A stretch of 42,731 nucleotides of DNA, taken from positions 1 through 42,731 of the forward strand of contig CAJXOU010000024.1 in the NCBI GenBank assembly GCA_913057645.1, written 5' to 3'. Under the pieces are notes generated by a model, which was not told the origin of the DNA, did no database searches, and saw only the letters and a program-made list of their open reading frames with translations. Below, piece by piece: positions 19,382-37,197 of this stretch. The stretch is from an uncultured Rhodobiaceae bacterium. Lineage in GTDB: Bacteria; Pseudomonadota; Alphaproteobacteria; Parvibaculales; Parvibaculaceae. Position 1 is the first letter of the stretch. Every line of letters begins with the position of its first letter. The position numbers and the translations under genes are program-made.

Positions 19382-19390
19382 GTGGCTGCC

Positions 19391-19798
19391 TCAGCCCGGG
19401 TTCTTCGGGAAGCGCGCGCCTTCGATCATGGGCTTCATCCAGCTCTGCGCGCTGTCGCACCAGACTTCGCCGCCTGGTGTGAGGCTCGACGTATCGTCCA
19501 GCGTTCCCGCCTTGATGATCGCGATGCCGGGATTGGCCGACAGCCGGGAGAAGATGGGCGAGCCGCATGTCGCGCAGAATTCGCGGTCCACCGTGTTGCC
19601 GCTGTCGGCCTTGTCGTGAAACACCTTGAGCTCGCCCTTCGTCGCGACGGCATCCGCGGGAACGACGACGTTCAGCGAAAAGGCGGCGCCGCCCTGCCGC
19701 TGGCAGTTCTTGCAGTGGCAGATCATGGTGGCGAGCGGCGAAGCGTTGACCTCGTACGAGAATTGCCCGCACAGGCAGCGGCCCTGAAGTTCCGGCAT
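19391..19798 (-). CDS. GFA-family (glutathione-dependent formaldehyde-activating enzyme-like) protein
   Basis: The protein has 135 residues with a strong AAGGAGGGG ribosome-binding site. Zinc-ligand cysteines appear as CLCG (residues 8-11), CHCKNC (27-32) and CATCG, the GFA/Mss4-like pattern. Family members bind zinc, and a few bind glutathione, but most have no proven reaction. It is the first gene of a two-gene operon with the downstream SDR. A helper role in handling an aldehyde is speculative. Confidence 0.82.
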   Translation of the reverse strand: MPELQGRCLCGQFSYEVNASPLATMICHCKNCQRQGGAAFSLNVVVPADAVATKGELKVFHDKADSGNTVDREFCATCGSPIFSRLSANPGIAIIKAGTLDDTSSLTPGGEVWCDSAQSWMKPMIEGARFPKNPG

Positions 19799-19869
19799 GA
19801 TGTCCCCTCCTTTGTTGTGCCTTGTTTCTTTCCCGCAAGTTCACAACGGCGAGGGCGCGCCCGTACAGC

Positions 19870-19914
19870 AAAAAAGAACCGCCGCCTTCCCCGATCACGG
19901 CGAAGGCGGCGGTT
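19870..19914 (-). terminator. Intrinsic terminator of the sulfatase gene
   Basis: Perfect 13-bp arms AACCGCCGCCTTC (19877-19889) and GAAGGCGGCGGTT (19902-19914) are followed, reading the minus strand, by CTTTTTTG (A-run at 19870-19875). It lies 28 bp beyond the sulfatase stop and separates that gene from the GFA gene. Confidence 0.88.
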
Positions 19915-19941
19915 GACGCACCGGCACGCTACGGAAAGGCC

Positions 19942-21600
19942 TCAGCCCGGCCAGTAGACATATTCGTCCTCGGGTGTCGCTTCTTCCTCGAGCGTCTTGT
20001 CGATCGTCACCGGCATTTCGGCGACGGCCGGGAAGAGCGGCTCGCGCTGCGTCGCGTTATGCGCTTCGACCAGCGCCTTCAGCTCCGCGACCTTCTCCGG
20101 ATTTTCCTCCGCGAGATTGACCTGCTCGGTCGGGTCTTCGTTCAGGTTGTAGAGCCAGGTCTTGTTCGGCCGCTCGGCGAATTGCAGCTTCCAGCCGTCG
20201 ACGCGCACCGCCTGATAATGCCCGTCGCGCCAGAAGATCGGTCGCGCGGGCGCCGCCGCCTCGTCCGTCCCGGTGACGTAAGGCAGGATGTCGATGCCGT
20301 CGATCACACGGTCGCCGGGCAAGGGCGCGCCCGCCGCCGCGACGATGGTCGGGAAGAGATCGAGATGCGCCACCGGCATCTTGCGCTCCGTGCCCGGCTC
20401 GATCTTGCCCGGCCAGCGCACGAACAACGGCACGCGGATGCCGCCCTCGAAATAGGTGAGCTTCCAGCCGCGATAGGGCTTGTTCACATCGGGAATGCCG
20501 ATATAGCCGGGCCCGCCATTGTCGCTCGAAAAGATCACGATGGTGTTGTCGTCGAGCCCGTTCTCCTTCAGCGCCTCCATCACACGGCCGACGCTCCGGT
20601 CGAGCGCGCGGATCATCGCCGCATAGACGCGTTCGCGCTCGTTCTCGATATGCGACAGCGCGTCGTAATCCGCTTTCGATGCCTGCAGCGGCGTATGCAC
20701 CGCCCAATGCGCGAGATAGAGGAAGAAGGGCCGGTTCTTGTTCGCCTCGATCGCCTTCACCGCCTCGTCCGTGTAGTAGTCGGTGAGATATCCCTTCGGC
20801 TCGAACCATTCGCCGCCATTATAGGACGTCGCATATTGCATCCGTGCCCAGAGGAACTGGTCGATCGGATCGAAAGGCAGTTTCGCGTTCACGACCTCGG
20901 GGCTGTCTTCCGGCAGGAAGAGCCCGCTTTCGAGCATCACGCTTTCGTCGAAGCCTTGCGCATTCGGAATGAACTCCGGTGAATTGCCGAGATGCCACTT
21001 GCCGATATGCATCGTGTGATAGCCCTTGGGCTTCAGCGCTTCGGCAAGCGTGATCTCCTCGCCGGGCAGTCCCTGTTCGCGGAAGGGCGGCGCATTGTCG
21101 GCCGCTTCCTGGTCGACGAGCAGCTCGTGAGGCCGGGTGCCGTCATTGTAGAACAGGTCGACGATGCGGGTCATGCCGGGCGGCGTCGGCGTGAACTCGA
21201 AGCCGGTCCGCGTGCCGTAGCGCCCGGTCATGATCATCGCGCGCGAGGGCGCGCAGGCCGCCGTGCCCGAATAGGCGGTGGAAAAGTTCGCGCCATCCCG
21301 CGCCAGCGCATCGATGTTCGGCGTCTCGACGATGCCGCCGCCGTAATAGCTGATATCGTTGAAGCCAAGATCGTCGGCGAGGATCACCACGATGTTGGGC
21401 GGGCGCTGGCCCTCGGGGGTGCTCGCCGTCTCCGGCCCCTTCTCCCACACGACCTCGCGGTTCGGCGCGACGGGCGTTGCATCTCGCGCACGGGTAGCCA
21501 CGGCGTAGAGGATGAGATCCTTGCGGAACGCATAGGCTGTGCCCGCAACCGTTACGAGAACCATGACAGCCGCCAGCGACCAGATTTGCCATTTTTTCAT
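19942..21600 (-). CDS. Secreted or membrane-anchored type I sulfatase (arylsulfatase family)
   Basis: The protein has 552 residues. The ATG at 21600 has AAGGGGG upstream and begins a signal or anchor helix (residues 5-25); the open frame upstream is non-coding. Asp76-Asp77 (LADDLGFN) and the formylglycine motif Cys116-Ala-Pro-Ser-Arg120 (CAPSR, then TGRYGTRTG) identify the formylglycine-dependent class. Further metal or active-site residues appear in MHIGKWHLG, and the metal-binding Asp-Asn in FSSDNGGPG. It would hydrolyse a sulfate ester in the periplasm after a maturation enzyme oxidises Cys116; none is visible here. It is transcribed alone and ends at a strong terminator. Confidence 0.9.
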   Translation of the reverse strand: MKKWQIWSLAAVMVLVTVAGTAYAFRKDLILYAVATRARDATPVAPNREVVWEKGPETASTPEGQRPPNIVVILADDLGFNDISYYGGGIVETPNIDALARDGANFSTAYSGTAACAPSRAMIMTGRYGTRTGFEFTPTPPGMTRIVDLFYNDGTRPHELLVDQEAADNAPPFREQGLPGEEITLAEALKPKGYHTMHIGKWHLGNSPEFIPNAQGFDESVMLESGLFLPEDSPEVVNAKLPFDPIDQFLWARMQYATSYNGGEWFEPKGYLTDYYTDEAVKAIEANKNRPFFLYLAHWAVHTPLQASKADYDALSHIENERERVYAAMIRALDRSVGRVMEALKENGLDDNTIVIFSSDNGGPGYIGIPDVNKPYRGWKLTYFEGGIRVPLFVRWPGKIEPGTERKMPVAHLDLFPTIVAAAGAPLPGDRVIDGIDILPYVTGTDEAAAPARPIFWRDGHYQAVRVDGWKLQFAERPNKTWLYNLNEDPTEQVNLAEENPEKVAELKALVEAHNATQREPLFPAVAEMPVTIDKTLEEEATPEDEYVYWPG

Positions 21601-21841
21601 GTGCCACCCCCTTCTTCTAACTATTGGCACCACTAATGGCATAATTTCGTCGTCCGATAAAGCGCGGCCGCCGCTGGGGCAGGGCGGCGGCAGGCAGAAA
21701 GGCGCAACCGGCTGTTCGCCTGTGAACGGCATTCCTGCCTCTCCCAAGTTCCGTAATGGCACCGATAGGGCTATCTTCTCCCGCAGGAAAAGCCCGCCTC
21801 GCTCGGAAGGCGGCATGAACAGGCATTTGGGAGACGTCCGC

Positions 21842-22819
21842 ATGAAGACGCGCATCACGGAACTTTTCGGCATCCAGCACCCGGTCATCCAGGGCGGCAT
21901 GCATTTCGTCGGCCTCGCCGAGATGGCGGCTGCCGTGTCGAACGCCGGCGGTCTCGGCATCATCACGGGCCTGACCCAGACGACGCCCGAAGCCCTCGCG
22001 AAGGAAATCGCGAAGTGCAACGACATGACCGACAAGCCCTTCGGCGTGAACCTGACCTTCCTGCCAGGCTTCGCCAATCCGCCTTACCCCGAATACATCC
22101 AGGCGATCATCGAGGGCGGGGTGAAGATCGTGGAGACCGCGGGTCGCAGCCCGGAGGCCTACATGCCGCCGATGAAGGAAGCGGGCATCAAGGTCATCCA
22201 CAAATGCACCTCCGTCCGCCACTCGCTTAAGGCCGAGCGCATCGGCTGCGACGCGATCAGCGTCGACGGCTTCGAATGCGGCGGCCATCCCGGCGAAGAC
22301 GACATCCCGAACATGATCCTGCTGCCCCGCGCGGCCGAAGAACTGAAGATCCCCTTCGTCGCGTCCGGTGGCATGGGCACCGCCTCGCAGCTCGTTGCGG
22401 CGCTCGCCCTCGGTGCCGACGGCATCAACATGGGCACGCGCTTCATCGCAACGAAGGAAGCGCCCGTCCATGAGAACGTGAAGAAGGCGCTCATCGCCGC
22501 GTCGGAACTCGACACCCGCCTCATCATGCGCCCGCTCAGGAACACCGAACGCGTGCTGGCGAACCCGGCGGTCGAGAAGATCGTCGAGATCGAGCGCGAG
22601 AAGGGTGCGAGCCTCGGCATCGAGGACATTCGCGAACTTGTCGGCGGCGTCTATCCGCGCGTCATGCAGGAAGGCGACATGGACGCCGGCGCCTGGAGCT
22701 GCGGCATGGTCGCCGGCCTGATCCACGACATACCGACCTGCAAGGAACTGATCGACCGCCTGATGTCGGAAGCCGAAACCATCATCCGCAAGCGCCTCGA
22801 AGGGCTCCTTGCCGCCTGA
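21842..22819 (+). CDS. Nitronate monooxygenase-family FMN enzyme
   Basis: The protein has 325 residues. The ATG at 21842 follows GGGAGA; the ATG at 21815 would add nine residues. The TIM-barrel features of the 2-nitropropane dioxygenase/nitronate monooxygenase family are clear: IQHPVIQGGM at the start, SNAGGLGIITG, the GGHPG histidine near residue 150, and phosphate-binding VASGGMGTASQLVAALALGADGINMGTRF. Known members oxidise alkyl nitronates with FMN. Many paralogues near acyl-CoA genes have unknown substrates, so the exact reaction is open. It diverges from the sulfatase across a 241-bp spacer. Confidence 0.85.
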   Translation: MKTRITELFGIQHPVIQGGMHFVGLAEMAAAVSNAGGLGIITGLTQTTPEALAKEIAKCNDMTDKPFGVNLTFLPGFANPPYPEYIQAIIEGGVKIVETAGRSPEAYMPPMKEAGIKVIHKCTSVRHSLKAERIGCDAISVDGFECGGHPGEDDIPNMILLPRAAEELKIPFVASGGMGTASQLVAALALGADGINMGTRFIATKEAPVHENVKKALIAASELDTRLIMRPLRNTERVLANPAVEKIVEIEREKGASLGIEDIRELVGGVYPRVMQEGDMDAGAWSCGMVAGLIHDIPTCKELIDRLMSEAETIIRKRLEGLLAA

Positions 22820-22920: not shown

Positions 22921-22965
22921 TTACGCTTTCGGCATCCGATTTTGCGCTTTTGGGAGGAACGCCAG

Positions 22966-24378
22966 ATGGGACTGATGACGCAGGACCAGTACGTCGAGAG
23001 TTTGCGCGACGGCCGCGTGATTTTCTGGGACGGAGACAAGATCACCGACCCGCCGAGCCATCCGAATTTCCGCGTGCCTATCGAAGTCGCCAAAGGCGAC
23101 TACGACTATGACAACCCGGAAAAGCGCGACATCATCACCTACGAAACGGAAGATGGCGAGCTCGCCCATCGTGTCTTCCAGGTGCCGCGCACCGAAGCGG
23201 ACCTGCAGGCCCGCATCAAGCTCGCCCACAACATGAGCATGGTGGGCGGCGTCACCGGCGTCTACATGGCGCTCCTCTCGATCAAGGACGAGGTGGCGCA
23301 GGTGAACCCGCGCTACGCCGAGAACATCGAAGCGATGTATCGCTACGCCCGTGCGAATGATCTGCGTGGCGCGGAAGTCATCACCGATGCGAAGGGTGAT
23401 CGCAGCCGCAAGGCGCATGAGCAGGACGATCCCGATCTCTATCTCCGCATCGTCGAGCGCAACAACGAGGGCATCGTCGTGCGCGGCGCGAAGTTCCACA
23501 TCTCTGCGGGCTCGCTCGTGCACGAGCTCGTCGTCATGCCGACCAAGGGCATGCGTCAGGACGAGGCGGACTACGCCGTCTCCTTCTCGATTCCCGTCGC
23601 GACGCCTGGCGTCAAGATGATCAACCGATCCTTCGCACCCGCGGCGCTGAACGAGTTCGACTATCCCGCAAGCTCGCATCATTCCTGCCCGGAGGCTCTG
23701 GTCATCTTCGACGACGTTCTCGTGCCATGGGAGCGCGTCTTTCTCGCGGGTGAGAGCCAGTTGGCCACCGTCTTCGCGCGCTCGCTCGGGCTCTGGGAGC
23801 GCACCATGGGCCTCGTTGCGGCGGCCGAAAGCGCCGAGATGCTCGTCGGCGCCGCGCAGCTCGTCACCGAGATGCAGGGCAAGGAGCGCAACATCGCCGC
23901 CCAGAACACCATCGCCGAGCTCGTCTGCTACTCGGAAATGATCAAGATGGGCCTCGACTATGCCTGCAAGCATTACGAGAAGACGCCGGGCGGCATGATC
24001 TATCCGAACGTGCTCGCCGTGAACGCGGCGAAATACTACTACGCCGCGAACTATCACGACATGATACGCAATGTGCACGATCTGGGCGGCGGCCTCGTGC
24101 TGACGCAGCCGGTGGAAGCCGATCTCCGTCACCCGGAAGCGGGTCCCTACCTGCGCAAATACATGCACACCAGGCCCGATGTCGATGTCGAGGAGCGCAT
24201 GCGCATCTACAACCTGATCCGCGACTACACGGCGGACGCCTATGGCGGCTGGCATCAGGTGACGACGCTTCAGGCGGGCGGCGGCCTTGTTGCCCAGCGC
24301 ATCATGATGAACCAGCTCTTCAATATGGAAGGCGCGAAGAAGAAGGCAAAACGCGCCGCAGGCATCCGCGAGAAGTGA
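22966..24378 (+). CDS. HpaB-like FAD-dependent monooxygenase (4-hydroxyphenylacetate 3-hydroxylase family)
   Basis: The protein has 470 residues. The ATG at 22966 is 7 nt after GGGAGGA. The sequence has the acyl-CoA-dehydrogenase-like HpaB fold: helical N-domain (TQDQYVESLRDGRVIFWDGD), beta domain (SFSIPVATPGVKMINRS), then a C-terminal helical bundle. The cysteines and His that bind the iron-sulfur cluster of 4-hydroxybutyryl-CoA dehydratase are not seen (no CxxxC), so a flavin monooxygenase of phenol-type rings is the better guess. Such enzymes need a separate flavin reductase, which is not in the window. The substrate is unknown. Confidence 0.78.
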   Translation: MGLMTQDQYVESLRDGRVIFWDGDKITDPPSHPNFRVPIEVAKGDYDYDNPEKRDIITYETEDGELAHRVFQVPRTEADLQARIKLAHNMSMVGGVTGVYMALLSIKDEVAQVNPRYAENIEAMYRYARANDLRGAEVITDAKGDRSRKAHEQDDPDLYLRIVERNNEGIVVRGAKFHISAGSLVHELVVMPTKGMRQDEADYAVSFSIPVATPGVKMINRSFAPAALNEFDYPASSHHSCPEALVIFDDVLVPWERVFLAGESQLATVFARSLGLWERTMGLVAAAESAEMLVGAAQLVTEMQGKERNIAAQNTIAELVCYSEMIKMGLDYACKHYEKTPGGMIYPNVLAVNAAKYYYAANYHDMIRNVHDLGGGLVLTQPVEADLRHPEAGPYLRKYMHTRPDVDVEERMRIYNLIRDYTADAYGGWHQVTTLQAGGGLVAQRIMMNQLFNMEGAKKKAKRAAGIREK

Positions 24379-24379
24379 C

Positions 24380-24868
24380 ATGACCGGCGAGGTTGTGCTG
24401 GATTTTCGGCTGGTGCCGATCGATCCGATATATGCGGATGATCACCGCCGGCTGGATTCGGTCGGCGTGAGTACCATTGAATACCACCTGTTCCACGGGA
24501 TCGTGACCTTCCGCATTGGTGATGTGGAGTTCGGTTTGCGGGTCCCCATTCCGGTGGTGGAATTTGCGAGGTGCATGCTCTGGTTAGCCAGGCAGCGTTT
24601 TTCCGGGCTCGGCAACAGCTTTGAGTTCACAGAAGGAGAGGGCGAGATATTCTTCGATATGGTTGCACCGGGCGTTGTTTCCGTCCGCTGTGACTACCAT
24701 GAAGAACAAGCTCAGGTATCCGCGCTCGAATTGCATGAAGCATCTCTGGCGTTTGCAAGGCGCGTTCTGGACATGCTTCGCAGCGACTTCCCGGACATAC
24801 TGGAGAACCAGGAATTCATTGACTGGTTTCTTCCGCTTCTGGAGGCGGACCGGGATCGCTTCCACTGA
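24380..24868 (+). CDS. Hypothetical protein with atypical base composition
   Basis: The protein has 162 residues and is not recognised. It starts one base after the HpaB-like stop (TGACATG), suggesting coupled translation. Codon use differs from its neighbours: it uses TTA and ATA and many A/T-ending codons in an otherwise very G+C-biased region. It is acidic and soluble, with no signal peptide or membrane segment: a beta-rich first half (FHGIVTFRIGDVEFGLRVPIPVVEF) and a helical C-terminus (ALELHEASLAFARRVLDML). The pattern suggests a recently arrived small gene, possibly of the immunity-like type, but nothing proves this. Confidence 0.6.
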   Translation: MTGEVVLDFRLVPIDPIYADDHRRLDSVGVSTIEYHLFHGIVTFRIGDVEFGLRVPIPVVEFARCMLWLARQRFSGLGNSFEFTEGEGEIFFDMVAPGVVSVRCDYHEEQAQVSALELHEASLAFARRVLDMLRSDFPDILENQEFIDWFLPLLEADRDRFH

Positions 24869-24886: not shown

Positions 24887-26344
24887 CTAGGCCATCTCGA
24901 AATCGTCCCAGCGCGGCTGGCTCATGTCGGCCTCGAATTTCTCGAAGGTCCAGGGCCAGGACGCGATGTTGCCGTGCCTGTCGATGTACCAGCTCTTGCA
25001 GCCGGTCGCCCAGACGGTGCCGGGCAGCGCCGCGCGCACCTCCTCGTTGAAGCGTTCGGCCGCCTGTTCTTTCGGCACGATTTCGGTCAGGTTTCCGTCG
25101 CGGAGTTTCTCGATCAGCCGCAGCGCATAGCCGAACTGCCGCTCTGCCGTCAGTAGCCATGAGAAGTTGCCGATAGGGCTGTTCGGCCCGCCGATCATGA
25201 ACCAGTTCGGAAAACCCGGAACGGTCACGGCGAGATAGCCCCGGTTCCCTTCCTCCCATGCTTCGTTCAGCGTCTTTCCGTCGCGTCCGGTCACTTCCAT
25301 CGGCCGCATCAGCTGGTGCGTGTTGAAGCCGGTCGCGAAGACGAGCACGTCGAGCTCGTGCAGCCGCCCGTCCTTGGTGCGGATGCCTTTTGCCTCTATC
25401 CGTTCGATGGGATCGGTGACAAGTTCCGCATTCGGATGCTGTATCGCCTCGTAGAAATTTTCCGACAGGATCAGCCGCTTGCAGCCGACGGCATAGTCCG
25501 GTGTCAGCTTCGCGCGCAGCTCAGGGTCGCGCACACTGTTCGCCAGATAGTCGCGGCAGACTTCCACGAGCTTCTCATAGGCGCGCGGGTTCGCGCCGAC
25601 GATCGCGGCGGCGAACTTCGAATTGTTCTCATGCGAGATGCGCTCATATTCCGATTGCAGCAGTTCCGGCTTCTCGCGGAAAAGAGCCTTCTGCTCCTCC
25701 GGTATCGGGCCCTGCGGCAAGGGCGCGATCCACTGCGCTGTCCGCTGGAAGAGCGAGTAATGCGCGACTTCGCCGACAAGCGCGCCGGTGATCTGCGTCG
25801 CCGTCGAGCCCGTGCCGATCACGCCGACGCGTTTTCCCTTGAGCGAGAGCCCGTCCTTCCACCGCGACGTATGAAACGCCTCGCCCTCGAAATCCTCGAT
25901 GCCCGGAATATCGGGATAACTTGGATGATGCAGCACGCCCGTCGCCGTGATGACGGCATCGAACCCGCCTTGCGAGCCGTCCGTCGTCTCGATCTCCCAT
26001 TTTCCGTCGCGGTAATCCGCGCGCATCACTTCCTGCCCGTAGCAGATGGAGCGTTCCACATCGTGCTTGGCGGCGACGTCTTTCAGGTAGTCGAGAATTT
26101 CCGCTCCCGGCGCGCAGACGCGGCTCCATTCCGCATTCGGCTCGAAGGAATAGCGATAGCCATGCGAAGGCACGTCGCAGGTGACGCCGGGATAGCGGTT
26201 GTCGCGCCACGTCCCGCCGAGCTCGTTCGCCTTCTCGTAAATGGTGACGTCGTCGAAACCCGCTTCCCGGAGCTTGATGAGCGCCATCATGCCGGAGGCG
26301 CCCGCGCCGATCACGGCGATCCTCAGCTTCCTCGCATTCGTCAT
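24887..26344 (-). CDS. Baeyer-Villiger-type flavin monooxygenase
   Basis: The protein has 485 residues with two Rossmann motifs: FAD-binding Gly13-Ala-Gly-Ala-Ser-Gly18 and NADPH-binding Gly177-Thr-Gly-Ser-Thr-Ala182. Between them is the Baeyer-Villiger fingerprint Phe152-x-Gly-x3-His-Thr-x2-Trp162 (FEGEAFHTSRW). A C-terminal ATGFN motif completes the class B signature. Known members insert oxygen next to a carbonyl to give esters or lactones. It is the last gene of a four-gene minus-strand operon, 64 bp behind the APH-like gene, and converges on the small hypothetical gene at 24868. No esterase is adjacent. The ketone substrate is unknown. Confidence 0.87.
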   Translation of the reverse strand: MTNARKLRIAVIGAGASGMMALIKLREAGFDDVTIYEKANELGGTWRDNRYPGVTCDVPSHGYRYSFEPNAEWSRVCAPGAEILDYLKDVAAKHDVERSICYGQEVMRADYRDGKWEIETTDGSQGGFDAVITATGVLHHPSYPDIPGIEDFEGEAFHTSRWKDGLSLKGKRVGVIGTGSTATQITGALVGEVAHYSLFQRTAQWIAPLPQGPIPEEQKALFREKPELLQSEYERISHENNSKFAAAIVGANPRAYEKLVEVCRDYLANSVRDPELRAKLTPDYAVGCKRLILSENFYEAIQHPNAELVTDPIERIEAKGIRTKDGRLHELDVLVFATGFNTHQLMRPMEVTGRDGKTLNEAWEEGNRGYLAVTVPGFPNWFMIGGPNSPIGNFSWLLTAERQFGYALRLIEKLRDGNLTEIVPKEQAAERFNEEVRAALPGTVWATGCKSWYIDRHGNIASWPWTFEKFEADMSQPRWDDFEMA

Positions 26345-26408
26345 GCCGCTCCTCCCTTTTCCCTCCGGTCATTGTCGGCCAACCGGCAATGCCACTCAAT
26401 GGGGCAGT

Positions 26409-27497
26409 CTATTCCGGCAGAAGCTCGAGCGCCCCCGTATCGAGAACATGGTCAGCGCCGCCGCGCAGCATCTGGAAGAACATGTTGTCGCCCCGCTCGG
26501 TGCGCTCCACGATCATCGAGGCCGTAAAGGCCATGTTGAAGAGCGAGAAACTGTAAAGTGCGTAGTGCTTCATCATCTCGTCATGTGAATAGCCGGTTAC
26601 GCCCAGTTCCCCGAGCCTGCGGTGATAGGTGCCGAGGAGTTCATCCTCATGCGCCAGCCGTTCCTCGCGCTTGAGCGCGCCGCTCAGAAAATAGGAAACA
26701 TCCGCCATGCAGCAGCCATAGCCGACCGACTGCCAGTCGACCACGGCAATCGGATAGCCGCCCTCCGCCGTGCCGAACATCATGTTGTCCGGCCGGTAGT
26801 CGTTATGCGTCAGGCATTTCGGGCCGTCATAGCCATCCTTGAAGAATTCGTAGTTCCGCGTGATCGCTTCGCCGATCTCCACGCAGTCGGCGGGAATGCG
26901 GTCGCCGTAGCGCTCGCGGAAACCCTGCCAGAGCAGATTGATGAGGTCGGGCTGCGTGCGCTTCGGCGCCGCCTTCGTCTCGAACAGCCATTCGACATTG
27001 TCCAGCGCCTCGTCGTTCCAGTGCGAGGCGTGGAACTTCGCCGCCTCCTCCAGCACCAGCGCCGCTTCGGCGACCGTCGTACCCTTCATCTGGTCGCCGG
27101 GCACGGCGGGCGCGAGGTCTTCCATGATGAGCACGAAGTCGCTCGTCTCCGGGTCGACATCGGCGTGAAGGCAGACCGGTGTCGTCAGCCCCGCGCTGTC
27201 CGCGAGCTCCCGGTAGAAATTCACTTCGCGAACATAGTTGCCGAAGTTGACGCCCGTCGCCCGGCTTTCCGGGTCGGAGGAGGGAAACTTGCCGACGACG
27301 GTCGCGGGCGCGCCCTTCGCATCGCCCTTGTAGGAAAGCGTGAAGCGCACGCTCTCGCCAACTTGCCCCGTGCCCACGCGCTTGCCGGCGAGGCTTGCAA
27401 CGGTCACGTCATGTCCGGCTTTCCTGAGTACGCCTGTCATCCATTCAGGCGTCACCGCCGCCGATCCCACGATCGGCAGGTCGAGCGTCTCTCCCAT
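26409..27497 (-). CDS. APH-family phosphotransferase (EcKL/CHK-like kinase)
   Basis: The protein has 362 residues with GGGAGGA upstream of the ATG. It has the aminoglycoside-phosphotransferase fold: an N-lobe Lys in VVGKFPSSD, the catalytic loop His231-Asn-Asp233...Asn238 (THNDYRPDNMMF) and the metal-binding Asp254 (VVDWQ). The segment VLIMEDLAP is the hinge. In catabolic operons this fold phosphorylates hydroxyl groups of small molecules rather than antibiotics. It lies between the NTF2-like and Baeyer-Villiger genes of one operon (30 and 64 bp gaps). Resistance is unlikely. Confidence 0.82.
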   Translation of the reverse strand: MGETLDLPIVGSAAVTPEWMTGVLRKAGHDVTVASLAGKRVGTGQVGESVRFTLSYKGDAKGAPATVVGKFPSSDPESRATGVNFGNYVREVNFYRELADSAGLTTPVCLHADVDPETSDFVLIMEDLAPAVPGDQMKGTTVAEAALVLEEAAKFHASHWNDEALDNVEWLFETKAAPKRTQPDLINLLWQGFRERYGDRIPADCVEIGEAITRNYEFFKDGYDGPKCLTHNDYRPDNMMFGTAEGGYPIAVVDWQSVGYGCCMADVSYFLSGALKREERLAHEDELLGTYHRRLGELGVTGYSHDEMMKHYALYSFSLFNMAFTASMIVERTERGDNMFFQMLRGGADHVLDTGALELLPE

Positions 27498-27527
27498 CTT
27501 GTCCTCCCTCGTTATTTGTTCCCGATC

Positions 27528-27899
27528 TCAGTCGGGTATTTTCGTCACGTTATGCACATAGACTTCGTTGAGTGCGATGCGCTCGCCCTCGAGCACCACG
27601 AGGTCGAACCCCCGCATCAGGCTCTTCGTCCCGTCCGGTGCCGAAATCGTGCAGTACCAGCGCCCGCAGAAACCGTTCGCCGTCTTCCACGTCTCGTGCG
27701 GTGCGTAGTGCATCGGCGGCGTATTGTCGAAAAGCTGTTTGAGGTAGGCTCCCAGCGCCTCTTCGCCTTTCAGGCCGTCCGGCACCTGCGGATCGCGATA
27801 GACCGTGTCCGCCGAATAGAATTTCAGCAGCCCCGGAACGTCCTTCTCGGTCCACTTCGCCAGCCAGCGCGCGTTGAAGTCTTCAATGTCGACACTCAT
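27528..27899 (-). CDS. NTF2-like/SnoaL-type small protein
   Basis: The protein has 123 residues with the cone-shaped NTF2-like fold pattern: an N-terminal helix (DIEDFNARWLAKWTEKDVPGLLKFYSADTVYRDP), then helix and four strands ending MRGFDLVVLEGERIALNEVYVHN. SnoaL-like members act as isomerases, cyclases or hydrolases of steroids and polyketides. Its start overlaps the stop of the upstream FAD monooxygenase (ATGA), so the two proteins are made together and probably act on the same compound. Confidence 0.8.
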   Translation of the reverse strand: MSVDIEDFNARWLAKWTEKDVPGLLKFYSADTVYRDPQVPDGLKGEEALGAYLKQLFDNTPPMHYAPHETWKTANGFCGRWYCTISAPDGTKSLMRGFDLVVLEGERIALNEVYVHNVTKIPD

Positions 27900-29152
27900 C
27901 CGACCTCTCCCTTCACGTGCGTACCGAGCACGTTCGCGCGGTGTTCTTCGGTGAACATCTCCGGCGGCAGCGTTTCAGGCCCCGCCATGATCGCGAAGGC
28001 ATGTGAGCCGAGCGACGGGTCCGCCGCCTTGCGCTCGTCGTAGCTGCGGCGCCGCTCGCGCGCCTCTTCCCCAAATTCGGCATCGAGTGCCGCCTGCAGC
28101 TGCCCGGCGAAGCGCAAGCGCCTCATCCGCTCATAGCGCTCCTCGCCATAGGGATTGAAGAGAGCAGGGCTCCACTCTTCGTTTTCCTTCAGCAACTCGC
28201 TCACCATCCGCACATCGCGATAGGTGATCGAAAGGCCGAGTCCGTTGATCGGATCGTTCCAGCCCGCCGCATCGCCGATCAGCACCGCGCCCTCGGCGAA
28301 GGGCATGTCGGTCCACGAGTCGTTGTTGAAATAGCTGAGCAGCGGCCCCGCCGGTTTTGCGTCCGCAAGATGTTTGTTCTCCGGCGCGCAGTTCATGCGG
28401 AAGGCTTCGAGGAAGGCGCGGGGCCCGTCCTCGCCCGCAAAGCGCCGCCGTTCGTCGAGCGAATAGCTGCCATAGACGCGCACGCGTCCCTTGCCTTGCG
28501 GGAAGGCCAGGAACGCGAAGTCGCCTTCCGTGCCGATCGCCTGTTTGGTTTCGTCCCAGCCTTCCGCCCCCTCGACGAGAAGCCCGCCGAACATGTGATG
28601 CGGCTTGTCCTGATGGAGGTCGATGCCGCAGGCGGCGCGCACCGCCGAGGCGCGTCCGTCCGCGCCCACGATCAGCCGCGCCGTTGCCTCATGCGTCTTG
28701 CCTTCATGGCTGTATTCGACGCGCGGCGCGCTGCCCGGCTCGATCAGCGTCACGTTGACGCCGCGCTTCGTTTCCGCGCCTGCGCGCTTCGCTTCGTCGA
28801 ACAGCGTCTGGCAATGTTTCGGATGGCCGAGGCACAGCGGCCCCGGTACGTCCGGCACGAACATGTCGAGCGGCAGCGGCGCCGCTTCCGCTTCCTGCGG
28901 CGTCCGCGTCTCGTCATAGCTCACATGCAGCGCGAGATGGTGCCCGCCCGCGGCGACCAGCGTGTCGTAGAGCCCGAGGCGTTTCGTCTCCGCGACGCCC
29001 CAGGGCGCAATCCATTCGCCGCGCACATGGTCCTCGAAGATCATGCTCTTTTCGAGCAGCAGGATCTTCTTTCCCGCCTTCGCCATGGTGGCTGCGAGCG
29101 CCGAGCCGCCGATCCCGCCGCCGACGATGATCAGGTCGTATGTGCCGCTCAT
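27896..29152 (-). CDS. FAD-dependent aromatic-hydroxylase-like monooxygenase (PHBH fold)
   Basis: The protein has 418 residues preceded by GGGAGG. It contains the dinucleotide motif GGGIGG (residues 11-16), the DG motif IVGADG (162-166) and the GD motif LIGDAAGWNDPINGLGLS (from 291) of class A flavin monooxygenases. It is the first gene of the operon that continues with the NTF2-like, kinase and Baeyer-Villiger genes. These enzymes hydroxylate rings or epoxidise double bonds. The substrate is not evident. Confidence 0.83.
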   Translation of the reverse strand: MSGTYDLIIVGGGIGGSALAATMAKAGKKILLLEKSMIFEDHVRGEWIAPWGVAETKRLGLYDTLVAAGGHHLALHVSYDETRTPQEAEAAPLPLDMFVPDVPGPLCLGHPKHCQTLFDEAKRAGAETKRGVNVTLIEPGSAPRVEYSHEGKTHEATARLIVGADGRASAVRAACGIDLHQDKPHHMFGGLLVEGAEGWDETKQAIGTEGDFAFLAFPQGKGRVRVYGSYSLDERRRFAGEDGPRAFLEAFRMNCAPENKHLADAKPAGPLLSYFNNDSWTDMPFAEGAVLIGDAAGWNDPINGLGLSITYRDVRMVSELLKENEEWSPALFNPYGEERYERMRRLRFAGQLQAALDAEFGEEARERRRSYDERKAADPSLGSHAFAIMAGPETLPPEMFTEEHRANVLGTHVKGEVG

Positions 29153-29376
29153 CTCGTCGACCTCCCTGCCGTGTTTCTTTTTTCTTCTGTCCGATGTTGG
29201 AAGCCGAAGCGCTCATCCGCAAGGGTCTCGACCCGTTTGCAGCGTGATTTCCGTCGCTTTTCGCGACCGGTTTCCATCTCCGGCGCTTCTTTCCGTAGCG
29301 TCCTTGCGCCGCACGGGCAGGCGCCCCGCTGTCCTGTTGGAGAAGCGCTTTGGCTTGTGATAAGCCCGGATCGGCC

Positions 29377-29402
29377 GGTGCCGGGGAGGTGCCGGGGAGG
29401 TG
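29377..29402 (+). repeat. Tandem 11-bp repeat containing the ribosome-binding site of the kinase gene
   Basis: GGTGCCGGGGA occurs twice head to tail (29377-29387, 29388-29398), followed by GGTG. The repeat carries GGGGAGG, the ribosome-binding site for the ATG at 29410. One copy suffices for translation; copy number could tune initiation. Confidence 0.45.
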
Positions 29403-29409
29403 ACAGGCT

Positions 29410-30441
29410 ATGACCGAAGGAATACCGGTCGATCTCGATGCGCTCGCGCGCTGGATGGACGCGAAAGGGCTGGGTTCGGGTCCGCTCGAGGACGCGATGC
29501 TGCTCGGCGGCGGCACGCAGAACATCCTGCTGCGCTTCGTCCGTTCCGGCCGCACTTACGTGCTGCGCCGCCCGCCGCCGCATCTCCGCAAGAATTCGAA
29601 CGAGACCATGCGCCGCGAGGCGCGCATGCTCGCCGCCATCGCGGACACGGACGTACCGCATCCGAGATTGATTGCCGCCTGTCCGGAGGAAGACGTGATC
29701 GGCGCGTCGTTCTATCTCATGGAGCCGATCGACGGTTTCAACCCGACGGTCGGCTTGCCGGCGCTGCATGCTTCCGATCCCGCCATCCGTCACCGCATGG
29801 GCCTCGCGCTCGTCGAGGGCATCGCCACGCTCGGCGTCGTCGATTATCTCGATGCCGGTCTCGAAGGTTTCGGCAAACCGGACAATTATCTCGAGCGTCA
29901 GGTCGCGCGCTGGCAGGCACAGCTCGAAAGCTACCGCGAATTTCCCTCATGGCCGGGCCCGGAGGGCATCCCGGGCGTCGCGAAGGTTGCGAAGTGGCTC
30001 GATGACAATCGCCCGTCCGCCTTCGAGCCCGGCATCATTCACGGCGACTATCATCTCGCCAACGTGATGTACCGCCATGACGGGCCGGAACTCGCCGCCA
30101 TCGTCGACTGGGAGTTGACCACCATCGGCGATCCGCTGCTCGATCTCGGCTGGCTCATGGCGACATGGCCGGAAGACGGCGCGCGCGCCGGCGCGGTCGG
30201 CGTCGAGCCGTGGGACGGTTTTCCGAAGGTGGACGAACTTGTCGCGCATTACGCCGCGCGCACCACGCGCGACATGAGCCATATCGGCTGGTATGCGGTG
30301 CTCGCCTGCTACAAGCTCGGCATCATTCTGGAAGGCACGCATGCCCGTGCCTGCGCGGGCAAGGCGCCAAAGGAGACGGGCGACATGCTGCATGCCAGCA
30401 CGGTCGGCCTCTTCGAGCGCGCGCTCCGCCGCATCGGCTGA
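29410..30441 (+). CDS. ACAD10/LvaA-type phosphotransferase family protein
   Basis: The protein has 343 residues. The N-lobe LGGGTQNILLRF, then YVLRRPPP and ARMLAAIADTDVPHPRLIA matches the kinase domain of ACAD10/ACAD11 and bacterial LvaA. The catalytic loop is His211-Gly-Asp213...Asn218 (IHGDYHLANVM) and the metal Asp is 233 (IVDWE). Known: LvaA phosphorylates 4-hydroxyacyl-CoA in levulinate catabolism so that the oxygen can leave. It heads a plus-strand pair with the SDR, divergent from the four-gene operon by 257 bp. The exact hydroxyacyl-CoA substrate is inferred only. Confidence 0.85.
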   Translation: MTEGIPVDLDALARWMDAKGLGSGPLEDAMLLGGGTQNILLRFVRSGRTYVLRRPPPHLRKNSNETMRREARMLAAIADTDVPHPRLIAACPEEDVIGASFYLMEPIDGFNPTVGLPALHASDPAIRHRMGLALVEGIATLGVVDYLDAGLEGFGKPDNYLERQVARWQAQLESYREFPSWPGPEGIPGVAKVAKWLDDNRPSAFEPGIIHGDYHLANVMYRHDGPELAAIVDWELTTIGDPLLDLGWLMATWPEDGARAGAVGVEPWDGFPKVDELVAHYAARTTRDMSHIGWYAVLACYKLGIILEGTHARACAGKAPKETGDMLHASTVGLFERALRRIG

Positions 30442-30467
30442 AGAACTGAAGACAGAGGGAGATGGTC

Positions 30468-31205
30468 ATGAGCGACACGGATTTCACGGGCAAGACGGTG
30501 CTCGTCGTCGGCGGCTCCAGCGGCATCGGCAACGGCATTGCGCATGCCTTCCGCAAACGCGGCGCGGAAGTGCACATCTGGGGCACGCGCGCCTCCGCGA
30601 AGGACTACGAAGGCGCCGAAGGCTCGGACATGACCGGCCTCAACTACGCGCAGATGGACATTTCGGATTTCGACGCCATCGAGGCTTACGCGCCGCCCTT
30701 CAAGTCGCTCGACGTGCTGGTGCTGAGCCAAGGCACCGTCATCTACAAGCGTGGCGAATTCAGGATGGACGGCTTCCAGAAGGTCATGGATGTGAACCTG
30801 AACAGCCTCATGGCCTGCGCCATCAAGTTCCACGACATGCTCGCCGCCGCGAAGGGCGCGCTCATCACCGTCAGCTCCACCGCCGGTTTCCATTCGACGC
30901 GCGGCAACCCCGCCTACAATGCGTCCAAGACCGGCGCCGTCGGTCTCACCCGCACGCTCGGCGAAGCCTGGGCGGGCGACGGCATCCGCGTGAACGGCAT
31001 CGCGCCGGGCCTTGTCGACACAAAGCTCACCAAGGTCACGACGGAAGACCCAAAGCGCCGCGAAATGGCGATCCGCGGCATCCCCGCCGGGCGTCTCGGC
31101 ACGCCGGACGACATGGCGGGCGCCGCGCTCTTCCTCGCCTCGCCGCTCTCGTCCTACATCTACGGGCAGACGCTCATCGTCGATGGCGGCCTGATCCTTT
31201 CCTGA
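30468..31205 (+). CDS. Short-chain dehydrogenase/reductase
   Basis: The protein has 245 residues. I prefer the ATG at 30468 because GAGGGAGA lies at proper distance; the ATG at 30462 is too close to it. SDR features are GGSSGIGNGIA (cofactor), a Ser in TVSSTAGFHS, the YNASK catalytic motif and a PGLVDTKL tail. The usual NNAG is replaced by LSQG, which occurs in a minority of SDRs. It follows the ACAD10-like kinase by 26 bp, so both are co-transcribed. It is likely a hydroxyacyl or alcohol dehydrogenase. Confidence 0.85.
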   Translation: MSDTDFTGKTVLVVGGSSGIGNGIAHAFRKRGAEVHIWGTRASAKDYEGAEGSDMTGLNYAQMDISDFDAIEAYAPPFKSLDVLVLSQGTVIYKRGEFRMDGFQKVMDVNLNSLMACAIKFHDMLAAAKGALITVSSTAGFHSTRGNPAYNASKTGAVGLTRTLGEAWAGDGIRVNGIAPGLVDTKLTKVTTEDPKRREMAIRGIPAGRLGTPDDMAGAALFLASPLSSYIYGQTLIVDGGLILS

Positions 31206-31248
31206 ACGAATGCGATCGCCCGTCTCGCGCCGGATTGAAGGAAGCGCG

Positions 31249-34120: not shown

Positions 34121-34230
34121 GGCTCTCCGGAAGGCTTTGTCGCGTCGCGGGAGCGGGGTAGGCTGCGGGCTCCCGCGTGCCCCTTGCGCGGGGAAAGAGC
34201 GCCCCGAAAGGCGCCGGGCCGGGAGGTGAG

Positions 34231-36114
34231 ATGGAACAGCCGAAAGACGCAACCGAAGCCACGCGCCGCGCGCTGGAAGAGCTTGTCCGCACACTGCCTG
34301 AGGATACCGGCGAGGATTTCGAGCTGGCGCGGAAGGGTTTCATCGCCACCATCCCCGACGCGAAGATCCTGAACGCCGCCGGTCACGCCGTCTGGGATAT
34401 GGGCACCTTCGCCTTTCAGGGCGAGGAATGCGGTTGCCCGGAAACGGTGAACCCGAGCCTCTGGCGTCAGGCGAAACTGAATGCCGTCCACGGTCTCTTC
34501 GAGGTGACGAAGGGCATCTATCAGGTCCGCAACTTCGACCTCTCCAACATCACCTTCATCGAAGGCGACACCGGCTACATCGTCATCGACCCGCTGATCT
34601 CCGCCGAGCCAGCCGCCGCCGCGTTGGCGCTCATGCGCGAGCACCGGGGCGACAAGCCGGTCACGGCCGTCATCTACACCCACAGCCATGTCGATCACTA
34701 TGGCGGCGTGAAGGGCGTTCTCTCCGATGAGGACATCGCCAGCGGCTTGCAGATCATCGCGCCCGAAGGCTTCCTCGAGGAAGCGGTCAGCGAGAATGTG
34801 CTCGCGGGCAACGCGATGGGCCGCCGCGCGACTTACATGTATGGCGCGCTCCTGCCGCGCAACGCGAAGGGCCATGTCGATGCCGGCCTCGGCAAGACGG
34901 TCTCGATGGGCCAGGTGAGCCTCGTGCCGCCGACCGTCAGCATCTCGCGGACCGGCACCCGCATGACGGTCGACGGCGTCGAGATCGTCTTTCAGGTCAC
35001 GCCCGGCACCGAAGCGCCCGCCGAAATGAACTTCTATTTCCCGCAGTTCAAGGCGCTCTGCATGGCCGAAAACTGCTCCTGCCAGCTCCACAATCTCTAC
35101 ACGCCGCGCGGCGCGCAGGTCCGCGATGCGAAGGCCTGGAGCTGGTACATCGACGAGGCGATCGACCTCTTCGCGAAGAAGACCGACGTCCTCTTCGCCA
35201 GCCATCACTGGCCGCGCTGGGGCGGAGACGCCGCCGTCTCCTTCCTGAAGAAGCAGCGCGACCTCTACAAATATGTCCACGACCAGACGTTGCGCATGGC
35301 GAACCACGGGGACACGCCGCTCGAGATCGCCGAGAAGCTCGCGCTCCCGCCGACGCTTGCCGCCGAGTGGTACACGCGCGGCTATTACGGCACGCTGAAC
35401 CACAACGCCAAGGCCGTCTATCAGCGCTACCTCGGCTGGTTCGACGGCAATCCCGCGAATCTCCACAAGCACCCGCCGGAGGAAGCGGGCCGCCGCTATG
35501 TCGAGCTTGCGGGCGGTCCGCAAGCGCTCCTCGACCACGCCCGCGCCGCCTTCGCCAAAGGCGACTACCGCTGGGTCGCAGAACTCGTGAACCATCTCGT
35601 CTTCGCCGACCCGTCGAACGCGGACGCGCGCAACCTGCAGGCCGACGCGCTCGAACAGCTCGGCTATCAGGCGGAGTCCGGTCCCTGGCGCGCCTTCTAT
35701 CTCACCGCCGCCATGGAGCTGCGCAATCCGCGCCCTCCGTCGGACACGCCGCGTCAGGGCGCGGCCGGGCAGATCCGCTCGCTTCCCGCGGAACAGCTTC
35801 TCGACTCGCTTTCCGTTCGCCTCAACGGCGAAAGGGCAGGCGCAAGCGAGATCGCGATCAATTTCCGCTTCACGGATACGGACGAGCGCTTTCTCGTCAC
35901 CGTCGAGAACGCTGTTTTCCACCACTATCCCGGCCGCGAAGCAGCAATGGCACCCACCGTCTCGCTGACACGTTCCCTCCTTGCCAATCTCGTGATCGGC
36001 GAGCGCACGCTGCCGGACGATGCTGTCGCGATCGAAGGCGCGTCCGAACCTTTCGCTGCCCTTCTTTCGCTTCTCGACCGCTTCGATTTCTGGTTCGAGA
36101 TCGTCATGCCCTGA
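34231..36114 (+). CDS. MBL-fold alkylsulfatase (SdsA1/BDS1 family)
   Basis: The protein has 627 residues. The ATG at 34231 follows GGGAGGTGAG. The metal site Thr150-His-Ser-His153-Val-Asp155-His156 (THSHVDHYGG) defines the metallo-beta-lactamase fold. Further Glu and His ligands follow (EAPAEMNFYFP, MAENCSCQLHN, ASHHWPRWG), then an alkylsulfatase dimerisation domain (about 390-510) and a C-terminal SCP2-like lipid domain. Known members split primary or secondary alkyl sulfates such as SDS to alcohol and sulfate. No signal peptide is visible, so it acts in the cytoplasm, unlike secreted SdsA1. A zinc-free MDR reductase follows after 60 bp. Confidence 0.9.
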   Translation: MEQPKDATEATRRALEELVRTLPEDTGEDFELARKGFIATIPDAKILNAAGHAVWDMGTFAFQGEECGCPETVNPSLWRQAKLNAVHGLFEVTKGIYQVRNFDLSNITFIEGDTGYIVIDPLISAEPAAAALALMREHRGDKPVTAVIYTHSHVDHYGGVKGVLSDEDIASGLQIIAPEGFLEEAVSENVLAGNAMGRRATYMYGALLPRNAKGHVDAGLGKTVSMGQVSLVPPTVSISRTGTRMTVDGVEIVFQVTPGTEAPAEMNFYFPQFKALCMAENCSCQLHNLYTPRGAQVRDAKAWSWYIDEAIDLFAKKTDVLFASHHWPRWGGDAAVSFLKKQRDLYKYVHDQTLRMANHGDTPLEIAEKLALPPTLAAEWYTRGYYGTLNHNAKAVYQRYLGWFDGNPANLHKHPPEEAGRRYVELAGGPQALLDHARAAFAKGDYRWVAELVNHLVFADPSNADARNLQADALEQLGYQAESGPWRAFYLTAAMELRNPRPPSDTPRQGAAGQIRSLPAEQLLDSLSVRLNGERAGASEIAINFRFTDTDERFLVTVENAVFHHYPGREAAMAPTVSLTRSLLANLVIGERTLPDDAVAIEGASEPFAALLSLLDRFDFWFEIVMP

Positions 36115-36174
36115 AGCGTCCGCCGAGGCGCCCCGAAAATCCTGCTAACGCAATCTCCGGAGGACACCATCACC

Positions 36175-37197
36175 ATGAAGAACGACGTCAACCGCCAGTT
36201 CCGCCTGAAGACGCGCCCCACCGGCCGCATCGAGAAGTCGAATTTCGATTTCGTCGAGGAGCCGATTCCCGAGCCCGGTCCCGGCGAGGCGGTCGTGCGC
36301 GTGCTCTATCTCAGCCTCGACCCCACGAACCGCATCTGGATGAGCGACATGGACCAGTACATGCCGCCCGTCGGCATCGGCGAAGTCATGCGCGGCGGCG
36401 GCGTCGGCGTGGTCGTGAAGTCGAACTCGGCGCGCTACAAGGAAGGCGACCGGGTGAGCGGCCTCACCGGCTGGCAGGACTACTGCATCGCCGATGAAGG
36501 CATGCGCGCCATGAGCGTGCTGCCGCAAGGCCTTCCCGTCGAACTGCCGACCATGCTCGGCGCCTGCGGCATGACCGGCCTCACCGCCTATTTCGGTCTC
36601 CTTGAGCTTGGCCGCCCGAAGCCGGGTGACACCGTCCTCGTCTCCGCTGCAGCGGGCGCCGTCGGCTCGGTCGTCGGCCAGATCGCGAAGATCAAGGGTT
36701 GCCGCGCCGTCGGCATCGCGGGCGGGCCAGACAAGTGCCGGCACATTGTCGAGGATCTCGGCTTCGACGCCGCCGTCGACTACAAGGCGGCGGACTGGCG
36801 CGAGCAGCTTGCCGCCGCGACGCCGGACGGCATCGACGTCAACTTCGAGAATGTCGGCGGCGAGATCATGGAAGCCGTCATGGCGCGGATGAACCTGTTC
36901 AGCCGCATGCCTCTCTGCGGCATGATTTCCGGTTACAACACCGGCGACCCGGCCATGCGCGGCGATTTTTCGCCCATTCTCATGCGCCGCATCGAGGTGC
37001 GCGGTTTCATCGTCATCGACTTCATGGAGAAGTTCGCCGAAGGCGCGATGCAGCTCGCCACCTGGGTGGCGGAAGGCAAGCTGAAACACCGCGAGACCAT
37101 CGTGGACGGCCTCGAAAACGCGCCCGTCGCCGTCAATCGTCTCTTCGACGGCGGCAACATCGGCAAGCTGGTGGTGAAGGTCGCGGAAGCGCCCTGA
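36175..37197 (+). CDS. Zinc-independent MDR-family NADPH oxidoreductase (CurA/PTGR-like)
   Basis: The protein has 340 residues. It shows the medium-chain reductase fold with the nucleotide motif AAAGAVGS (residues about 160-167) and the leukotriene/prostaglandin-reductase type N-terminus (YLSLDPTNRIWMSDMDQYMPPVGIGEVMRG). The structural and catalytic zinc cysteines of alcohol dehydrogenases are absent. Such enzymes reduce the C=C bond of enones or act as quinone reductases. It is probably co-transcribed with the alkylsulfatase. Confidence 0.87.
   Translation: MKNDVNRQFRLKTRPTGRIEKSNFDFVEEPIPEPGPGEAVVRVLYLSLDPTNRIWMSDMDQYMPPVGIGEVMRGGGVGVVVKSNSARYKEGDRVSGLTGWQDYCIADEGMRAMSVLPQGLPVELPTMLGACGMTGLTAYFGLLELGRPKPGDTVLVSAAAGAVGSVVGQIAKIKGCRAVGIAGGPDKCRHIVEDLGFDAAVDYKAADWREQLAAATPDGIDVNFENVGGEIMEAVMARMNLFSRMPLCGMISGYNTGDPAMRGDFSPILMRRIEVRGFIVIDFMEKFAEGAMQLATWVAEGKLKHRETIVDGLENAPVAVNRLFDGGNIGKLVVKVAEAP

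Follow-up and report, generated by a model that had tools for sequence, protein, structure and literature searches.

A divergent, apparently trimmed gene cluster in an uncultured Rhodobiaceae bacterium that may link flavin-dependent oxygenation to kinase-assisted dehydroxylation

The window analysed here is the complete 42,731-nucleotide contig CAJXOU010000024.1 of an uncultured Rhodobiaceae bacterium (assembly GCA_913057645.1; 3.75 Mb in 193 contigs), whose closest relatives in our collection of named genomes are mostly Parvibaculum records. It contains six genes in two units set back to back (Table 1). Unit A, the minus-strand arm, comprises FAD3, NTF2, EcKL and a Baeyer–Villiger monooxygenase (BVMO); unit B, the plus-strand arm, comprises ACADk, a kinase, and a short-chain dehydrogenase/reductase (SDR). 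A sequence-only reading of the window had placed six open reading frames (ORFs) at these positions and in these families, and we recovered both, with Pfam scores of all six proteins above the curated cut-offs. Sibling genomes carry the genes in the same order, with orthologues 78–97% identical, so the six are not chance ORFs. FAD3 and NTF2 share four bases (27896–27899), the ATGA-type overlap reported earlier, and an overlap of exactly four bases recurs in 32 of the 51 named loci checked. A promoter scan found 0 versus 1.0 expected and a terminator scan 5 versus 5.2 expected, and a palindrome search of the divergent intergenic region returned only a weak palindrome at 29365–29384. Genomes of the family are labelled G and individual loci L (L031 is the G023 locus).

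Table 1. Genes and other features of the divergent locus and its flank, in window coordinates
Feature	Coordinates	Strand	Details
BVMO, type I Baeyer–Villiger monooxygenase	24887–26344	-	485 aa, last gene of minus arm; FMO-like PF00743 70.7 bits
EcKL, EcKL-type APH-fold small-molecule kinase	26409–27497	-	362 aa; PF02958 70.8 bits, PF01636 52.6 bits
NTF2, NTF2/KSI-fold small enzyme	27528–27899	-	123 aa; SnoaL_2 52.0 bits
FAD3, class A flavoprotein, probable monooxygenase	27896–29152	-	418 aa, first gene of minus arm; FAD_binding_3 PF01494 77.3 bits
Divergent intergenic region	29153–29409	.	No TetR in window; TetR here in four siblings
ACADk, ACAD10/11-type APH-fold kinase, probable hydroxyacyl-CoA kinase	29410–30441	+	343 aa; APH PF01636 132.8 bits
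SDR dehydrogenase, usual ACADk neighbour	30462–31205	+	247 aa; adh_short_C2 PF13561 170.4 bits
Junction without the 2.7 kb (ACAD, Zn-ADH, NTF2b) of the G023 locus	31206–31216	.	DNA comparison with L031
HpaB-family flavoprotein, possible extra unit B member	22942–24378	+	PF11794/PF03241
Small protein directly after the HpaB-like gene	24380–24868	+	162 aa; no Pfam or NCBIfam match

FAD3 belongs to class A by its FAD_binding_3 score (77.3 bits against a cut-off of 22) and its GADG and GD motifs, and the residues GADGR and GDAAGWNDP are invariant across 10 sequences. It is probably a monooxygenase and not a reductase; a geranylgeranyl-reductase superfamily model matches it too, at 71.8 bits against a cut-off of 158.8. 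The nearest folds to its AlphaFold2 model (pLDDT 92.4) are the halogenase PltA at the top, squalene epoxidase and aromatic hydroxylases. The halogenase motif is WxWxIP; it is missing in all 36 FAD3 sequences, and we rejected a halogenase assignment despite the rank of PltA.

The best VIA-align match of NTF2 (AlphaFold2 model pLDDT 96.5) is ketosteroid isomerase (KSI), at Z 16.9 and 2.5 Å over 118 residues. Its Asp36 coincides with the catalytic Asp40 of KSI and is invariant in 39 sequences, while D99, placed by eye from sequence only, corresponds to KSI Asp103. Given the fold and the kept Asp, NTF2 likely functions in acid–base chemistry. It is not a plain KSI, since residues are only partly kept and a Trp replaces the oxyanion Tyr16; it also differs from KSI in being paired with a flavoprotein. 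We do not class it as a plain limonene-1,2-epoxide hydrolase (LEH) either. The LEH active site comprises Tyr53, Asn55 and an Asp-Arg-Asp set; Tyr53 aligns with Y34 and Asn55 with D36, and the other active-site residues fall outside the aligned part.

The sequence-only reading had seen two APH-fold kinases. Both have that fold, and we could refine their types: the first is EcKL (70.8 bits for PF02958 against a gathering score of 22) and the second is of the ACAD10/11 type. The HxDxRPDN loop and DWQ of EcKL are invariant in 25 aligned sequences. A phmmer search found no solved-structure relative of EcKL at E 0.01, and ACADk has several, so by sequence the two kinases are not close relatives. EcKL resembles other EcKL kinases in its domain score; it differs in being bacterial and often in a fixed FAD3–NTF2 context. 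Since it accompanies FAD3–NTF2 even where ACADk is not near, its substrate is more likely the FAD3/NTF2 product than an acyl-CoA. Among the loci it has no rule-like acyl-CoA dehydrogenase (ACAD) partner, so the idea of kinase-assisted dehydroxylation rests on ACADk. Six EcKL relatives (38–41%) also occur in a sister genus (L037–L042) with no FAD3 seen nearby, and a FAD3 search of those genomes gave no match. We set these contexts aside; their conserved neighbours resemble, by eye, carbamoyl-phosphate synthase and other housekeeping genes.

Unit A was found well beyond the window. FAD3 occurs in 10 of 40 family genomes, all within one genus (27 genomes), with NTF2 and EcKL alongside in all ten. 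At E 1e-40 or better it occurs in 5 of 385 genomes of the class, the window genome counted, a possible underestimate in that scoring was limited to four candidates per genome. Scanning named genomes yielded 80 FAD3 loci, including Henriciella, Hyphomonas, Caulobacter, Phenylobacterium and Sphingomonas; these are the best of 366 confirmed matches, and counts on them describe near relatives only. Adjacency was counted on 75 of the 80, leaving out five without 1.5 kb downstream. NTF2 directly follows FAD3 in 69, EcKL comes next on the same strand in 40, and EcKL lies anywhere in the locus in 47. FAD3–NTF2 is thus a widespread pair. Distant FAD3 proteins (36–38% identity), the best plasmid matches, are encoded on two Rhodococcus plasmids (L048, L049), each close to an annotated NTF2-family gene and a TetR gene; the window NTF2 as query matched nothing in L048, L049, L052 or L053 at E 1e-4. 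The L048 and L049 regions also hold acyl-CoA and 3-(3-hydroxyphenyl)propionate hydroxylase genes.

Neighbour clustering, for which nine loci had been removed as duplicates of named records, picked out 13 loci (including L067, L078 and L101) in which a small conserved gene 3' of FAD3 replaces EcKL. This gene, GIY-YIG-like by eye, follows NTF2 in L067 and L078 and directly follows FAD3 in L101. Another cluster, in which several ACAD types are mixed with shadow ORFs, does not enter any count. Four FAD3 loci labelled Acidobacteria or Sulfopaludibacter (L079, L082, L083 and L087) resemble those of Hyphomonas and are possibly binning errors.

The fourth gene of the minus arm encodes a type I BVMO. 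The type I fingerprint is FxGxxxHxxxW, usually followed by Pro or Asp. The window protein carries FEGEAFHTSRWK and the GxGxxG/A motifs GAGASG and GTGSTA, with Lys after the fingerprint Trp. Among solved structures it is closest to cyclohexanone monooxygenases (E 6e-77), with which it shares both Rossmann parts and the Asp and KR Arg positions, and from which it differs in length, the span between residues 219 and 251 being shorter by about 30 residues. Its gene partners are also unlike those of cyclohexanone degradation. A BVMO is present in six of the seven Parvibaculum loci in which the two units are linked. Across the named loci, a BVMO-type gene lies within 5 kb of FAD3 in 14 of 80 versus 1.3 expected, a comparison that serves as a guide only: the queries came from the same loci after inspection, the expected number reflects the BVMO density of one genome, that of the window (7 per 3.75 Mb), and 11 of 17 first-look candidates were scored.

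The FAD3-adjacent BVMOs fall into at least three unlike subfamilies, which strengthens the suggestion, made from the window alone, that a BVMO belongs to the route. In Parvibaculum they are similar to cyclohexanone monooxygenase. A second type, which we take to be EthA-like from its N-terminal sequence, is found mostly in Phenylobacterium; it directly follows EcKL in L095, L104, L106 and L109, lies near EcKL in L089 and precedes FAD3 in L088. An N-terminally extended BVMO occurs in L060, L064 and L121, and a further form of 604 aa in L123. As loci of one genus are not independent, a fair count is three to four recruitments of a BVMO to FAD3 loci.

In unit B, the best solved relatives of ACADk are 3dxp (E 4e-41), 9o56 and the ACAD11 structures 8v3v (E 2.6e-26) and 8v3u. 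It keeps the equivalents of mouse ACAD11 catalytic Asp220 and Asn225 and of the CoA-side Arg176; in the numbering used here, the equivalent of ACAD11 Arg86 was not matched. Its HGDYHLAN and RQVARW align with HGDFKLDN and RQVSTW of ACAD11, and VDWE is also present. Both window motifs are found in 17 of 18 family loci, the remaining one (L146) reading HGDYHLSN and RQVGRW. On plasmids the first motif is HGDFHIAN in Variovorax and departs further in Sphingomonas (HGDVGTPN). Orthologues of at least 69% identity occur in 18 of 40 family genomes; more distant ACADk-type kinases (29–37%) are present in nearly all 40, two of them in the window genome.

Besides the seven loci in which ACADk faces FAD3, we sampled 11 separate ACADk loci. 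ACAD is present in nine, TetR in eight, a Zn-type alcohol dehydrogenase (ADH) in four and an Abhydrolase_3 esterase in five (G014, G031, G032, G036 and G037; Pfam was run on the G036 copy, to which the other four are 72–82% alike). The ACAD carries GRIHHCMR in G011, G012, G014 and G016 and in the siblings G020, G023 and G028; the G010 ACAD is cut. HCMR is described in PMC12440821 as an ACAD10/11-specific motif. The window genome encodes three ACADs with HCMR elsewhere, among 30 examined of the 38 ACAD loci found. On a Variovorax plasmid, SDR (62%), ACAD (39%; GRIHHAMR) and ACADk (60%) are consecutive; an SDR gene accompanies ACADk, adjacent to it or within one run of genes, in relatives and also, at 62–67% identity, on plasmids of Variovorax and Cupriavidus, and a Sphingomonas plasmid has ACADk–ACAD. 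ABC-transporter-like genes, recognised by eye, lie near ACADk in G011.

The sibling loci indicate how the two units meet. In G020, G023 and G028, TetR–FAD3–NTF2–EcKL–BVMO faces ACADk–SDR–ACAD–ADH–NTF2b, the G020 BVMO running into the contig end; in G025 the left side is the same and the contig ends beyond ACADk, before SDR. The inter-arm TetR of these four siblings is co-oriented with FAD3, stands in a gap of about 0.89 kb and is 54–63% identical to the unit B TetR of G012. TetR, ACAD and NTF2b were not found at the G013 locus, and the window yielded neither these three nor ADH. In G015, TetR, ACAD, ADH, NTF2b and BVMO were not found at the locus, and an AMP-binding CoA ligase follows EcKL in the BVMO slot, the only ligase among the six siblings searched.

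Comparison of the window with G023 at the DNA level resolves the absences as clean gaps: window 29176–29394 stands against 0.84 kb, and window 31209–31216 against 2.7 kb (31209 corresponds to L031 13939 and 31216 to L031 16658). Read from these alignments, the window locus is most simply a trimmed version of the fuller sibling locus. The direction of change is an interpretation, for which loss is the simplest reading, because in G012 and G016, which lack unit A, unit B includes both TetR and ACAD. The sulfatase and NMO genes are in frame in the siblings too.

Whether the six genes form one conserved unit had been offered as a check on the original proposal. They occur together in 5 of the 10 FAD3-bearing family genomes, of 40 searched; one of these five has its BVMO at a contig end, and a sixth genome is cut before SDR. 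No such unit extends beyond one Parvibaculum group, and the two units, unlinked in three genomes, are mostly unassociated outside Parvibaculum. We therefore rejected a single conserved unit: rather than being ancestral, the six-gene set brings two units together, in a fuller form in siblings and a reduced one in the window. Unit B nonetheless accompanies unit A at the level of the genome. An ACADk orthologue (at least 69%) is present in 10 of 10 FAD3-bearing family genomes versus 8 of 30 others (Fisher 5e-5), and within the genus in 10 of 10 versus 4 of 17 (Fisher 1e-4), in a test that ignores descent and with FAD3-bearing genomes that form about two groups by identities, no tree having been used.

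It is quite possible, if somewhat short of probable, that the locus represents a two-armed catabolic regulon in trimmed form, with both arms serving one pathway. FAD3 would insert one oxygen atom, by hydroxylation or epoxidation, and the KSI-fold NTF2 would transfer a proton or open a ring to give a carbonyl. The BVMO would put oxygen next to that carbonyl, yielding an ester or lactone. A hydroxyacyl-CoA would be made from this by an esterase and a CoA ligase whose genes are presumed to lie elsewhere in the genome. ACADk would phosphorylate the hydroxyacyl-CoA, and an ACAD10/11-type dehydrogenase, here in trans, would eliminate the phosphate to leave an enoyl-CoA. SDR would oxidize or reduce an alcohol or ketone intermediate, and EcKL might phosphorylate a hydroxyl made early in the route, the weakest step of the scheme. 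The sequences themselves show the gene identities, their motifs and order, the fuller sibling form and the lack of ACAD, ADH and TetR in the window. We infer each reaction, their order, the substrate class and the link between the arms; for the first half (FAD3, NTF2 and BVMO) we do so from family and context, and the second half would follow, by analogy with the breakdown of levulinate and 4-hydroxy fatty acids, the chemistry established for LvaA/LvaC and ACAD10/11 (PMC11342911 and PMC12440821).

The sequence-only reading had put forward this oxidation, Baeyer–Villiger and dehydroxylation route with steps missing, and it now has partial support. As it stated, the window yielded no CoA ligase or esterase with the queries used (the ligase query was that of L054, run on the window and six siblings). 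The missing steps do appear in relatives, as a CoA ligase (G015), an HCMR ACAD after SDR (G020, G023 and G028) and an esterase (five genomes); because these lie in the same neighbourhoods, the route is better supported than the window alone allows. The kinase-assisted step likewise gains from the ACAD11 Asp, Asn and Arg176 kept in ACADk and from the ACADs beside it in separate loci, four of them with HCMR, and loses from the lack of an ACAD in the window itself.

Several observations weigh against a single pathway of this kind. Units A and B are both present but unlinked in G031, G032 and G036, and neither a BVMO nor ACADk lies near the majority of the 80 FAD3 loci. The window has no ACAD with the queries used, G037 and a 3 kb stretch of G001 have none beside ACADk, and the ACADs of G002, G031, G032 and G036 read GRIHHAMR and not HCMR. 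NTF2 places an invariant Trp (Trp12 in all 39 sequences) where KSI has its oxyanion Tyr. The BVMO enrichment and the FAD3–ACADk co-occurrence weaken as arguments with the limits given above. G013 is very probably P. lavamentivorans DS-1, for which PMC3368416 reports no growth on cyclohexanone, hydroxyacetophenone or C6, C8 and C12 cycloalkanes, nor on camphor, geraniol, citronellol, linalool, menthol or eucalyptol. Any catabolic role of the locus in DS-1 would concern growth substrates other than these.

Much of this would fit two independent modules placed next to each other by chance, an explanation that we find possible if rather doubtful. Unit B would then be an ordinary hydroxyacyl-CoA module decaying in the window lineage, as the missing ACAD, ADH and TetR would suggest, and unit A would have a separate job, such as modification of an endogenous isoprenoid, lipid or quinone-like compound. 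The three genomes with unlinked units, the eight of 30 FAD3-less family genomes that have ACADk without unit A, and the many FAD3–NTF2 loci outside Parvibaculum that lie amid genes judged by eye to be non-catabolic (in Henriciella, Hyphomonas and Sphingomonas) all agree with it. It accounts less well for the unit B-type TetR between the arms of four siblings, the recurrence of BVMO neighbours of FAD3, the CoA ligase in the BVMO slot of G015 and the co-occurrence of FAD3 and ACADk even where they are unlinked.

Two further explanations are less likely. A biosynthetic or tailoring set, analogous to pairs of a polyether epoxidase and an NTF2-fold epoxide hydrolase or cyclase, would be in keeping with squalene epoxidase and halogenases among the nearest folds of FAD3 and with the polyether epoxide hydrolases/cyclases (5cxo, 3rga) and SnoaL2 in the Foldseek list of NTF2. 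We consider it very unlikely: the halogenase motif is in none of the FAD3 sequences, LEH residues are only partly kept in NTF2, the partners in relatives are acyl-CoA enzymes, and no synthase or carrier protein was noticed among neighbours by eye, no dedicated search having been made. Most improbable, in our judgement, is a detoxification or antibiotic-inactivation set in which a flavin monooxygenase and a small-molecule phosphotransferase modify a toxic compound, in the manner of rifampin monooxygenases and aminoglycoside or macrolide kinases. In insects, EcKL proteins are linked with detoxification, and there are distant matches of FAD3 to rifampin monooxygenase (42 bits) and of ACADk to APH(3') (26.6 bits) and macrolide kinases (19.6 bits); these scores are far under the curated cut-offs (800, 205 and 650 bits), and an ACAD stands beside ACADk in nine of the 11 separate loci, even if the ABC-transporter-like genes of G011 speak somewhat the other way.

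Among known systems, the two-armed catabolic regulon invites comparison with Rhodococcus limonene degradation. Degradation of the limonene-1,2-diol type employs a flavin epoxidase, an NTF2-fold epoxide hydrolase, a dehydrogenase, a BVMO and a CoA ligase. This run of functions is alike. The limonene flavin oxygenase is luciferase-like, whereas FAD3 is class A; there are two kinases here, LEH Asn55 is an Asp, and DS-1 lacks growth on the terpenoids tried. Closer to unit B are the lva operon of Pseudomonas putida (LvaA/LvaC, levulinate) and mammalian ACAD10 and ACAD11, which it resembles in the kinase motifs of ACADk and in the ACAD beside ACADk in relatives and siblings, with HCMR in seven genomes (PMC12440821 and PMC11342911). 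The window differs from an lva-type module in having no ACAD and no CoA ligase beside ACADk, in SDR as the usual ACADk partner and in the flavin-monooxygenase gene set that unit B faces.

Breakdown of 4-hydroxy acids through phosphorylation was lately tied to mammalian ACAD10/11 (PMC12440821 and PMC11342911) and was earlier known from the bacterial lva operon. If the proposal is right, the same phosphorylation chemistry is used after oxygenation and Baeyer–Villiger cleavage, which would explain how some bacteria pass the hydroxyl that such cleavage leaves. It would likewise assign a role to a bacterial EcKL kinase and to the FAD3–NTF2–EcKL set of Parvibaculum, Henriciella, Phenylobacterium and others. 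In open-licence PMC papers we found no description of the gene combination, no function for a bacterial EcKL and no relevant Parvibaculum proteome data. A bolder extension, which we think unlikely, is that FAD3–NTF2–EcKL is the core of an undescribed alphaproteobacterial oxidative relay of monooxygenase, KSI-fold enzyme and small-molecule kinase, joined in Parvibaculum with CoA-level phosphorylation, so that two successive phosphate activations would remove hydroxyls left by flavin oxygenation and Baeyer–Villiger cleavage. The siblings with the fuller double gene set, together with DS-1, make the proposal directly testable.

Beside the minus arm lies an HpaB-like gene whose orthologue (67–68%) directly adjoins ACADk in G036, and it is possibly a further member of unit B; the other linked siblings gave no match. 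With the 162-aa gene, which was not found in 18 other compared loci, it occupies 22942–24868, between an NMO-like gene and BVMO, a stretch missing in G023 by DNA comparison. The HpaB-like protein shares a KGDRS...EQDDPDL stretch with CoA-acting dehydratases. In 4-hydroxybutyryl-CoA dehydratase the 4Fe-4S cluster is held by Cys, Cys, His and Cys. We rejected that identity, which would have suited the 4-hydroxyacyl-CoA chemistry, as these ligands are absent: the residues aligned with CFQRC and HRQSYGGC of 1u8v include no Cys or His.

Elsewhere in the window, 16012–22819 is 92.9% identical to G023 at the DNA level (against L031), and the integrase encoded at 16597–17766 is 100% identical in protein sequence, whereas the FAD3–BVMO stretch (24891–29176) reaches only 83.6%; judged by these identities, the two stretches seem to have different histories. 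At 34177–37197 an alkyl sulfatase gene (Alkyl_sulf_dimr, 218 bits) precedes one for a Zn-type oxidoreductase, which together may serve surfactant breakdown, and an AurF-like diiron N-oxygenase family match (49.9 bits) lies on the minus strand at 38088–39416. Genes for a replication-relaxation protein and an outer membrane efflux protein lie within positions 1–15700, as does one whose product matches HerA weakly (below cut-off); this region may belong to an integrated mobile element that carries an efflux system.

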